Shown here: positions 1,267-27,863 of the stretch, one piece after another
How positions within the stretch are numbered: the first letter of the stretch is position 1
Layout of the letters: the number at the start of each line of letters is the position of its first letter
Assembly (NCBI GenBank): GCA_016869555.1
Contig: VGDY01000012.1
Span: forward strand, 1 to 45,304
Direction: 5' to 3'
From: Alphaproteobacteria bacterium
Lineage (GTDB): Bacteria; Pseudomonadota; Alphaproteobacteria; Rhizobiales; Beijerinckiaceae
Length of the DNA stretch: 45,304 bases
Notes under the pieces: generated by a model
Seen by the model: only the letters and a program-made list of their open reading frames with translations
What the model was told of the DNA's origin: nothing
Databases searched by the model: none
Position numbers and translations under genes: made by a program

Positions 1267-2802
1267 TCAAAAGCGAAAGTAGATGAACGGCTTGAAGGGA
1301 TCGGCCAGTCCCTTCGCCAGCGCCGCAAGGAAGAGCAGCGACAGCGCGCTATTCGACGCCATGGCGTAACGCTGCGCCGCGCTTCCCCAATTGAAGTCCT
1401 TGACATAAAGCGACAGCCGCTGCGCGACGCAAATCGCCGCGGCGATCAGCGCCACGACGACATATTCTTCCGGAATGGCGAGCGGCGCACTCGCTTGCGC
1501 TGTAGGATTCGCCATCAACGCCAGCAGCGCGCCCGCCTGCTCAAGAGAGGTCGCGCGAAAGAATGTCCAGCCGACGATGACGACGATCATCGTGACGATA
1601 TTGGCGCACCAATCCGGCAATCGCTGCAGGCTCTTGACCAGAAACAGCCGGTCGAGCACCAGGAACACGCCATTATAGGCGCCCCAGGCGATATAGGTCC
1701 AAGCGGCGCCGTGCCAAACGCCCGAGGCGAAGAAGCATATCCAAAGATTGAGATAGGTGCGCGCTTCGCCGCGCCGGTTTCCGCCGAGCGGAAAATACAA
1801 ATATTCGCGAATCCAGCTGGTCAGCGAAATATGCCAGCGCCGCCAGAAATCGGTGATGCTGGTCGCGACATAGGGCATGTTGAAATTTTCGAGAAGACGG
1901 AAGCCGAACATGCGCGCCAGACCGATCGCCATGTCGGAATAGCCGGAGAAATCGAAATAAATCTGGAAGGTGAAGAACAGCACGCCCGCCCAGGCTTGCG
2001 TGAAGCCGAGAGAACCGACGTCGCGCGAGAAGATCAGGTCGGCGCCGCTCGCCAGCGTATCGGCGAAGAGCAGCTTCTTCACGACGCCGAGCATGAAGCG
2101 CGAAAAGCCGATGACGAAATCATCGACGTCGGCGTGCGGCATGTCGTCGAACTGGCGCGCGATGTCGTGATATTTGATGATCGGTCCGGCGAGGAGCTTC
2201 GGGAAGAAAAAGACATAGAGCCCATAGAGCAGCGGCGCGCGCGCCGGCGCGGTGACGCCGCGATAGACGTCGACGAGATAGGTGATTTTTTCGAAGACGA
2301 TGAAGCTGACGCCGATCGGCAGCGCGATCTGGGGAATGTTGATGCCCGGCAGCGTCAGCGCCTTCAAAATCGCGTCGAGATTGAGCGCCAGAAAGCCGGT
2401 ATATTTGTAATAGACGAGGATCGCGAGATTGGCGACGACGCCAAGCGCGAGCCAGAGCTTGCGCATGTCATTCCCGGCAGGCCGCAGGCCTGACCGGGAA
2501 TCCAGAGCAATCACAGCCTCGCTCGCAGGTCTGGATTCCCGATCGCTTCGCTTAAGCGAAGCGTCGGGAATGACATTCGGATCGCCGATGGATAGAGCGG
2601 CGATCCGTTGCGCCGCATAAAGGTCGAGCGCGACCGAGGCGAAGACGAGGAAAATGAAGACCGGCTCGCTCCAGGCGTAGAAGATCACGCTGGCGGCGAA
2701 CAGGATGATCGCCCGCCGCAGGCGGACTTCTCCGAAAAACAGGTAGATAAGGTAAACCGCCGGCCCGAACAGAAACAGGAACAGCGGCTCGTAGAAAAGC
2801 AT
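1267..2802 (-). CDS. MBOAT-family membrane O-acyltransferase (AlgI-like)
   Basis: 511 residues with about ten or more hydrophobic segments. The MBOAT core is clear: 'DFWRRWHISLTSWIREYLY' (about residues 315-333) with the conserved His, and 'SGVWHGAAWTYIAWGAYNG' with the second invariant His, plus 'FQIYFDFSGYSDMAIGLARM'. AlgI-type proteins move acetyl groups across the inner membrane and hand them to an AlgJ/AlgX partner, which is the next gene downstream. Odd: after the first two or three membrane segments there is a hydrophilic, charged stretch of about 36 residues (about 76-112) encoded by a palindromic repeat element, after which the usual 'RKLWLALGVVANLAILVYYKYTGF' family sequence resumes. 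The frame stays open across the element, so the gene is probably functional. Assignment to the family is secure; substrate is not. Confidence 0.9.
   Translation of the reverse strand: MLFYEPLFLFLFGPAVYLIYLFFGEVRLRRAIILFAASVIFYAWSEPVFIFLVFASVALDLYAAQRIAALSIGDPNVIPDASLKRSDRESRPASEAVIALDSRSGLRPAGNDMRKLWLALGVVANLAILVYYKYTGFLALNLDAILKALTLPGINIPQIALPIGVSFIVFEKITYLVDVYRGVTAPARAPLLYGLYVFFFPKLLAGPIIKYHDIARQFDDMPHADVDDFVIGFSRFMLGVVKKLLFADTLASGADLIFSRDVGSLGFTQAWAGVLFFTFQIYFDFSGYSDMAIGLARMFGFRLLENFNMPYVATSITDFWRRWHISLTSWIREYLYFPLGGNRRGEARTYLNLWICFFASGVWHGAAWTYIAWGAYNGVFLVLDRLFLVKSLQRLPDWCANIVTMIVVIVGWTFFRATSLEQAGALLALMANPTAQASAPLAIPEEYVVVALIAAAICVAQRLSLYVKDFNWGSAAQRYAMASNSALSLLFLAALAKGLADPFKPFIYFRF
2467..2574. 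repeat. Palindromic repeat element inserted in frame within the MBOAT gene
   Basis: The 108-bp segment is bounded by a perfect 10-bp inverted repeat, GTCATTCCCG (2467-2476) and CGGGAATGAC (2565-2574). Inside it a second pair, CCGGGAATCCAGA (2494-2506) and TCTGGATTCCCG (2530-2541), is complementary over 12 bp, and a perfect 20-bp palindrome, CGCTTCGCTTAAGCGAAGCG, lies at 2544-2563. The layout is that of an intergenic mosaic/REP-like element. Its length is divisible by three (36 codons) and it adds a hydrophilic stretch to the acyltransferase. Confidence 0.85.
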
Positions 2803-2944: not shown

Positions 2945-2999
2945 CCCGCTTTAGCGGGGCAAAGGCGCCACGAAGCGCCGGAAGCCCCCGCTTCGCGGG
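2945..2999. repeat. Three-hairpin intergenic palindromic repeat (degenerate)
   Basis: Three short hairpins in a row between the MBOAT start and the toxin gene stop: CCCGCT/AGCGGG (2945-2950, 2953-2958), GGCGC/GCGCC (2964-2968, 2975-2979) and CCCGC/GCGGG (2987-2991, 2995-2999). The wording resembles the 'CTTCTCCCGC...GCGGG' repeats frequent between Rhizobiales genes, in a worn form. There is no T-tract, so a terminator role is not obvious. Confidence 0.5.
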
Positions 3000-3020
3000 A
3001 CAGGGAGCGGGTTGCGCCGC

Positions 3021-26955: not shown

Positions 26956-27863
26956 CGCCCGCCCTCTTCCTTGAGTCGCGCGCGCTCCCACAGCAGCAAC
27001 GGGACCATCAACAAAGCGACGAGGGCGATCGCCGCAGCCGACGCCGCCGGCCAGTCGTGATTGGAGAAGAAGTCATTCCACAAGGTCCGCCCGATCATCA
27101 AAGTTTCGGAGCCGCCGAGGAGATCGGGAATGACGAATTCGCCGACCGCGGGAATGAACACGAGGAGCGATCCCGCGATGACGCCCTCCCGCGAAAGCGG
27201 CAATGTCACGCGCAAGAACACCTGCGCCGGAGACGCCCCGAGGTCGGCCGCCGCCTCGCGCAGACTCGCGTCCTGACGCTCCAGCGCCGCATAGATCGGC
27301 AGCAGCATGAAGGGCAGATAGGAATAGACGATGCCGACGACGACGGCGCCGGACGTCGCATACATTTGCAGCGGCGCGGAAATGAGCCCAAGCGCCATCA
27401 GCGCATTGTTGATCAGCCCCTCATCCTTGAGCAGCGCGATCCAGGCGTAGACGCGGATAAGAAAGCTCGTCCAGAAAGGCGCGACGGCGAGGCCGATGAG
27501 AATGGGACGCAGGCGTTCCGGCGCGCGCGCCATGGCGAGCGCGAAAGGAAAAGCGACGATCAGCGTGATCAGCGTCGCGACCGCGGCGATCGTAAGCGAC
27601 GAGAGATAGGACTCGAGATAAAGCGTATCGCTGACGAGCGCGCGGTAGGAGTCGAGCGTAAAGTCCTGCGCCTTGGCCCAGAGCTCGGCGAGACTGTCGG
27701 AAAACATAAATATCGGCCGGTAGGGCGGACGCGCCAGCACCGATTGCGAGACGGAAATCTTGGCGACGAGCAGCATCGGCGCAAGAAAAAACGCGGCGAT
27801 CCAGAGATAGGGCGCGGCGATAACGAGCCGCTGGCCGAGCGAAAGCCTGCGCCGAGGGCTCAT
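26952..27863 (-). CDS. potH: Polyamine-type ABC transporter permease (PotH/PotB-like)
   Basis: 303 residues, six membrane helices. The N-terminus 'RLVIAAPYLWIAAFFLAPML' is a membrane segment; the EAA loop reads 'LREAAADLGASPAQVFLRVT' and is followed by 'FIPAVGEFVIPDLLGGSETL', the PotH signature. It is separated from potG by a 172-bp spacer filled by a palindromic repeat, so coupling to potG is looser than that of potH with potI. Confidence 0.93.
   Translation of the reverse strand: MSPRRRLSLGQRLVIAAPYLWIAAFFLAPMLLVAKISVSQSVLARPPYRPIFMFSDSLAELWAKAQDFTLDSYRALVSDTLYLESYLSSLTIAAVATLITLIVAFPFALAMARAPERLRPILIGLAVAPFWTSFLIRVYAWIALLKDEGLINNALMALGLISAPLQMYATSGAVVVGIVYSYLPFMLLPIYAALERQDASLREAAADLGASPAQVFLRVTLPLSREGVIAGSLLVFIPAVGEFVIPDLLGGSETLMIGRTLWNDFFSNHDWPAASAAAIALVALLMVPLLLWERARLKEEGGR

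Follow-up and report, generated by a model that had tools for sequence, protein, structure and literature searches.

In-frame repeats resembling CGTC-tagged REP dimers in an MBOAT gene and a few further conserved genes of Methylocystis

Palindromic repeats situated in frame within protein-coding genes are known from Rickettsia, Wolbachia, enterobacteria, Neisseria, Coxiella and other bacteria, according to the accounts in PMC3767692, PMC2229807, PMC10969869, PMC5896051 and PMC3733652. Rickettsia palindromic elements (RPEs) are described as being about 105–146 bp long, and a translated insert has been reported for the Rickettsia gmk gene (PMC2229807). The groups RPE-4, RPE-6 and RPE-7 have the motif ATGAC in common, and the Rickettsia japonica paper did not decide whether gene sites that hold different RPE groups are hotspots of insertion or represent one old insert that has diverged (PMC3767692). 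In-frame fusions have also been described for MITE-like repeats, namely ERIC, YPAL/RU-2, RU-3 and the 107-bp form of Correia (PMC2229807), as well as QMITE (PMC5896051).

A second group of relevance is the CGTC-tagged REPs, which are described as occurring mainly in alphaproteobacteria, mostly free-living ones, with REPs lying inside genes in some of several species studied (Di Nocera et al. 2013, PMC3733652). According to the same source, the CGTC/TGTC-tagged superfamily includes Rickettsia RPE-4 and RPE-6, and its CGTC-1 type is said to include Neisseria dRS3 together with RPE-6. The traits given for the superfamily are an unpaired CGTC tag (often TGTC or CCTC), a stem of 8–9 bp beginning with A-T pairs, a CCA tail and a loop of 4–5 nt (Table 1 of that paper, with exceptions reported); head-to-head dimers with a spacer of 20–100 bp predominate. 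In the recB gene of Xanthomonas, different REPs are described at about one site (PMC3733652).

A repeat in frame within an MBOAT gene

The DNA analysed, referred to as the window, is a stretch of 45,304 nt (contig VGDY01000012.1, positions 1 to 45,304) from a Methylocystis assembly of 3.95 Mb (GCA_016869555.1; source genome G000), the genus being assigned from named relatives. The first-pass annotation, made from the sequence letters, had pointed to a 108-bp element with perfect 10-bp terminal inverted repeats, placed in frame and without stop codons in an MBOAT acyltransferase gene. This description was borne out: the element is open in its frame within a minus-strand ORF, and the terminal repeat GTCATTCCCG/CGGGAATGAC, perfect at 10 bp, extends to 12 bp (2465–2476 and 2565–2576; Table 1). 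Pfam MBOAT matches the ORF with E = 5.4e-31 at residues 195–412, which lie downstream of the insert, while the residues upstream of it were identified as MBOAT by alignment with homologues; the NCBIfam DltB model also matched, with a score under its cut-off.

Folded as single-stranded DNA, the 108-bp element forms an outer stem and three inner hairpins (−39.4 kcal/mol; z = −8.27, none of 200 shuffles being equally stable). This z value, together with the 35 genome copies described below, rules out a chance palindrome. Rfam gave no match anywhere in the window at gathering scores.

Table 1. Features of the repeat and its host gene (window positions)
Feature	Position	Strand	Basis
MBOAT-family acyltransferase CDS, 511 aa, with the repeat inside in frame	1267..2802	-	ORF, Pfam MBOAT, alignment with 57 other distinct homologues
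Entire repeat, including 12-bp perfect terminal inverted repeats ATGTCATTCCCG / CGGGAATGACAT	2465..2576	-	inverted-repeat and fold analysis
Family A repeat core, 108 bp, in-frame translation VIPDASLKRSDRESRPASEAVIALDSRSGLRPAGND	2467..2574	-	missing in 51/58 distinct homologues
Half-unit 1 (gene sense): GTC tag, stem ATTCCCGA..TCGGGAAT, inner hairpin CGCTTCGCTT/AAGCGAAGCG, CCAG tail	2531..2574	-	
Spacer separating the half-units, 25 nt (27 nt in 22/35 copies)	2506..2530	-	
Half-unit 2, opposite orientation, GTCATTCCCGGCAGGCCGCAGGCCTGACCGGGAATCCAG	2467..2505	+	

Two further repeat-like pieces were seen in the window. At 2985–3008, upstream of the MBOAT start and outside the gene, there is a piece resembling a CCCTCTCCC-type repeat (family C, see below). 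At 27125–27158, two GTCATTCCCG-like 10-mers lie in the same orientation, 24 bp apart, and the CTGGATTCCCG half was not found there.

Among 58 distinct MBOAT homologues (78 loci less 20 duplicates), the insert is present in seven, six of them full-length and one partial, and absent from 51, which include close relatives, as the first-pass annotation had led one to look for. All carriers are Methylocystis genomes (L057 from the source genome, L058, L088, L060, L087, L097 and the partial L112). That annotation had also allowed for the same peptide turning up in unrelated genera; it is found in none of the aligned MBOAT homologues outside Methylocystis. An assembly error or contamination might be suspected, as the source genome is in 295 contigs with 8.61% contamination and repeats break contigs in it, but the MBOAT insert recurs in other assemblies, among them G022, a single contig of 3.77 Mb, and the named isolate Methylocystis silviterrae FS (L087), which makes the chance of such an artefact practically negligible.

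Insert-free close relatives have proteins of 473 aa (476 in L093). Compared with these, five full-length sequences, the window protein among them, are longer by a net 38 codons (108 + 6 bp) and L097 by 36 codons. The first-pass figure of 36 added residues thus holds exactly for a relative (G017) but not for the window protein. Similarly, family sequence resumes near the edge of the element, as had been stated, but not directly after it, since the adjoining codons of filled alleles (IGDPN before and M after, or similar) differ from the EQKP, or similar, of several empty ones. With a net gain of 36 or 38 codons and altered flanks, no target-site duplication was definable.

In the MBOAT gene tree, filled and empty alleles are intermixed, the filled G017 being the sister of the empty G005 with a support of 99 (our gene trees were built on 23, 25 and 25 sequences). 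This speaks against a single vertical insertion. Taken with the differing flanks, no single clean insertion event is visible, and from these sequence relationships it is likely that species have exchanged alleles or that there was more than one event. Other expansions occupy the same site in L101, L073, L074 and L103.

In L102, a more distant Methylocystis MBOAT (68% identical), the DNA at this site resembles the first half of a decayed family A repeat, and this locus may hold a decayed copy.

In an AlphaFold2 model of the window protein (mean pLDDT 86.3), residues 75–109 have values below 50 and are situated between helices 47–69 and 112–148. The insert is thus predicted to be a disordered loop.

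Dispersal of the repeat in the genome and the genus

The first-pass annotation had also considered that the element might have no second copy in its genome. A DNA search of the source genome gave 78 matches, counting both strands and partial ones, and a half-element pattern gave 40, with none for the reversed-pattern control. Full-length copies of the repeat, here called family A, were extracted by a pattern that demanded two outer tags and so passes over single halves; of 37 rows obtained, two were dropped (a chance match in L022 and a shorter second reading of the L056 copy), leaving 35 copies with the window copy included. Each has two oppositely oriented hairpins around a spacer of mostly 27 nt, composed of an outer GTC, a stem ATTCCCG/CGGGAAT and an inner CCAG, with point differences between copies. 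GTC is preceded by T at 48 and by C at 18 of the 70 ends (41 and 6 of 50 if the ten copies abutting an insertion sequence are set aside). Lengths are mostly 107 bp (15 copies) or 103 bp (8 copies), and only five of the 35 are multiples of three. Both copies borne by genes in this genome, those in MBOAT and rsmA, have such a length, as compared with 3 of the remaining 33.

The half-element pattern was detected in 21 of 39 Methylocystis genomes (control 0), with a maximum of 230 matches in G061 and 144 in G002, and in 37 of 385 sampled alphaproteobacterial genomes; outside Methylocystis the half-unit has mostly a short form of 26–30 nt among the matches listed. In plasmids, a similar copy exists in 2 of 72,556 records, both from Methylocystis iwaonis. 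Judged by these counts, the repeat is dispersed in the genome. An old, ordinary coding insertion that is palindromic by chance or convergence would fit the open reading frame and the presence of the insert in several species. We consider it extremely unlikely in view of a DNA unit that occurs 35 times in one genome with its palindrome conserved, of the 30 copies whose length is not a multiple of three, of the spread of the half-unit within the genus and of the fold statistics.

Some family A copies of the source genome resemble each other beyond the 12-bp repeats, with a GAACGGCTCGG-like sequence on the left (13/35), a CCAAGCGAACGGATC-like sequence on the right (11/35) or both (6/35). The element may exist as a longer unit.

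At ten of the 35 copies (L003, L006, L007, L011, L012, L015, L016, L024, L025, L028), a terminus of the repeat directly adjoins an insertion sequence, whose end reads GGGGTGGACGGCCCCGCCTCAACGG, and the contig mostly ends about 120 bp into the latter. Its first 120 bp match 29 plasmid records at 60–90% identity, 26 of them from Bradyrhizobium and many annotated as IS110 family transposase. REPs have reportedly been seen before as targets of such insertion sequences.

As a candidate mobiliser we considered a RAYT. Y1_Tnp matches occur in 9 of the 39 Methylocystis genomes and are absent from G002 despite its many half-elements; of 13 Y1 loci checked, five have one GTCATTCCCG-like 10-mer (at most one mismatch) and none is flanked by repeat ends on both sides, so that this candidate is unsupported. 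The search, which covered Y1_Tnp, found no transposase matching the repeat.

Sites filled by different repeats

Frames that span a repeat were scanned for domains. In the source genome the scan covered the frames across eight of the 35 family A copies, and two lie in real genes (MBOAT by alignment, RsmA by profile); L019 and L048 have a domain on one side only and four have none. Around family A matches in the genus there are at least 40 long open frames; of the 21 covered, 10 are rsmA or cobB, 10 have no Pfam match (including L184), and in one (L196) the sole domain lies downstream of the repeat. Families B and C have 33 spanning frames, of which 20 were scanned: four are supported on both sides (a C5 DNA methylase, CobB and HrpB twice), L298, L316, L324 and L333 have a domain downstream only, and 12 have none. 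The idea that many more genes carry a repeat in frame was dropped, as few of the scanned frames have support on both sides. Apart from MBOAT, the genes with profile support on both sides of the insert are thus rsmA, cobB, hrpB and the C5 DNA methylase gene, the last (L294, source genome) with a family B copy inside the Pfam match. In MBOAT, rsmA and cobB alike, family A is read from one strand and in a single frame (VIPDA..).

The second in-frame family A copy of the source genome is in rsmA/ksgA (L021). At 30 rsmA loci, drawn from 38 matches in 37 of the 39 genomes, we found family A in 13, family B (GTCATTGCGAG..CGCAATGAC) in 6 and no insert in 11. Family B is clear in L224–L226 and decayed in L227, L228 and L234, and inserts of this gene that have decayed, with broken hairpins, stay in frame; three of the 13 family A inserts are shortened by 12 residues. 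The two families begin in different codon phases (0 for A, 2 for B), which favours separate insertions. In the structure 4jxj, a solved relative, the matching gap is four residues long.

The cobB site lies between the CbiA and GATase_3 domains. Of 30 loci, nine have family A, six family C (including the source genome, L254), two family D and one a short remnant, while 12 are insert-free; repeats other than family A therefore occur at eight loci. In L255 and L256 a further hairpin pair is found inside the insert. For hrpB, 31 sequences were aligned: family C is clear in 15 and divergent in five, one has another repeat-like insert, three have short forms and seven are insert-free. The repeats in rsmA, cobB and hrpB were assigned to families by visual inspection of alignments and DNA, those in hrpB mostly by the peptide, with DNA inspected at three loci. 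Taken at the level of these alignments, in-frame placement, empty and filled orthologues, and different repeats at matching sites are all present.

Two observations concern individual family C loci. L317 (contig C151) and L320 (contig C123) are two hrpB copies with 87% identical proteins, each with a family C insert, and given the contamination of the assembly one of them may stem from another strain. In L316, a family C copy either immediately precedes a ccmH gene or coincides with its N-terminus.

Selection was compared by Nei-Gojobori dN/dS, summed over pairs that are not independent in small samples (6, 4, 3 and 8 sequences); the partial L112 was omitted, only equal-length inserts were used for rsmA, and 8 of the 9 family A loci for cobB. 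The insert in MBOAT has a dN/dS of 0.35 (6 sequences), compared with 0.14 downstream and 0.18 upstream. For rsmA the inserts gave 0.84 (4 sequences) and 2.14 (3 sequences) against 0.10–0.14 outside, and for cobB 1.08 (8 sequences) against 0.22 in the downstream segment, the only flank used. Synonymous change was lower in inserts (0.05–0.13) than in flanks (0.22–0.35). This lowering is not predicted by simple neutrality; a constraint on the DNA (the palindrome), conversion or a younger age are possible. Within the limits of such small samples, the ratios indicate that inserts evolve under relaxed amino-acid constraint with the frame kept.

These data bear on two other explanations. The insert peptide, taken over from the repeat, might have been selected as a functional addition such as a regulatory loop or one that binds a partner. 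All seven MBOAT carriers preserve the frame, with a length of 108 bp in the six full-length ones measured, and the MBOAT ratio is below 1 and under those of the rsmA and cobB inserts, as such a role would have it. The ratios near or above 1 in rsmA and cobB, the loss of 12 residues from three rsmA inserts, the unrelated repeats at the same sites, the close relatives without any insert and the low pLDDT of the modelled loop all argue against a selected peptide, which we regard as quite unlikely.

Also unlikely is a role of the repeat mainly as DNA or RNA, in which mRNA hairpins that slow transcription or translation, or an internal start after the element, would regulate the gene and the peptide would be a by-product. 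The very stable fold and the low synonymous change are in keeping with this, as is an ATG directly after the element in five of the seven insert-bearing MBOAT genes. That codon is, however, ACG in L058 and AAG in L088, so that the ATG for an internal restart is not conserved across carriers; moreover, the residues preceding the insert are conserved in close homologues, and the decayed rsmA inserts have kept their frame with broken hairpins.

We favour, and consider highly probable, near-neutral copies of a dispersed, REP-like heterodimer that lie in frame and lengthen linkers at permissive sites. The repeat would consist of two unlike CGTC/TGTC-tagged, REP-like hairpins that face each other across a short spacer, with copies spread through the genome and presumably mobilised in trans by an enzyme outside the repeat. 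One copy would have landed in a codon position of MBOAT between two helices, or have arrived there by interspecies recombination. As this copy has a length divisible by three and no stop in the frame concerned, ribosomes should translate across it and produce a polar, probably disordered loop of 36 residues that the enzyme would tolerate. A few permissive positions in other conserved genes would be filled likewise, by different repeat families per species; frame-shifting insertions and those in the protein core would be removed by natural selection, and the remainder would drift and decay in frame.

A further-reaching proposal is that unrelated Methylocystis repeat families repeatedly enter the same few sites in frame (the rsmA and MBOAT loops, the cobB and hrpB linkers), sometimes with further hairpins inside. 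These would be true hotspots rather than one diverged old insert, and interspersed repeats would continually supply housekeeping enzymes of free-living bacteria with new linker sequence. To this we give an even chance. Methylocystis comprises free-living species, some available as isolates, in which the same sites are found empty, filled, filled in another way or decayed, which makes the question of hotspot versus divergence testable, together with the cost of the loop to an enzyme. Annotators should note that a peptide like DSRSGLRPxGND or SGLLRSARND within a protein can mark an inserted repeat and not a conserved domain.

Comparison with known repeat systems

The expectation of RPE-like behaviour, raised in the first-pass annotation, agrees with our results, as a dispersed palindromic repeat is in frame in a protein gene and further genes are alike. 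The habit had also been thought undescribed for this kind of alphaproteobacterium; this does not stand, since genic REPs of free-living alphaproteobacteria have already been published (PMC3733652), and the habit is therefore not new. Methylocystis is not mentioned in that paper (the string 'methylo' is absent). We encountered no description of these repeats in the literature on Methylocystis palindromic or REP repeats, which is not proof of absence, and a literature search with DNA words of the element gave no relevant paper among the matches listed. No description that we encountered covers this genus, a heterodimer with long loops, or several gene sites filled repeatedly by repeats unrelated to each other; near-parallels in the published accounts are Xanthomonas recB (PMC3733652) and the RPE-4/6/7 sites (PMC3767692).

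ERIC, YPAL/RU-2, RU-3, Correia and QMITE are, like the present repeat, described as short inverted-repeat elements that add residues to proteins. They differ in sequence and host, and several have target-site duplications, which were not found here.

Rickettsia palindromic elements are similar in size, in being palindromic, in their in-frame position in conserved genes and in the ATGAC at the end, a likeness drawn from their published description. As described for RPEs, orthologous sites hold different groups, and copies in genes (MBOAT and RsmA, CobB in relatives) exist beside copies without gene-family support on both sides. In contrast to Rickettsia, the host is a free-living methanotroph with a genome of about 4 Mb, and some Methylocystis repeats at one site (the CCCTCTCCC type) look plainly unrelated to others.

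As far as the published description goes, CGTC-tagged REPs have in common with the element the outer TGTC/CGTC tags, an AT-starting stem, the CCA tail and the spacer size; in the Methylocystis repeat, the stems ATTCCCGA/TCGGGAAT and ATTCCCGG/CCGGGAAT are followed by CCAG. Also shared are an alphaproteobacterial host, some intragenic copies, the lack of any dedicated transposase found, and the head-to-head dimer with tags outside, the arrangement of all 35 extracted Methylocystis copies. The differences are the loops, which in Methylocystis have about 18–24 nt between 8-bp stems and contain a GC-rich stem of their own, as against 4–5 nt, and the two halves of the dimer, which are usually unlike each other. 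The element thus looks like a head-to-head dimer of CGTC/TGTC-tagged REPs in a long-loop Methylocystis variant.
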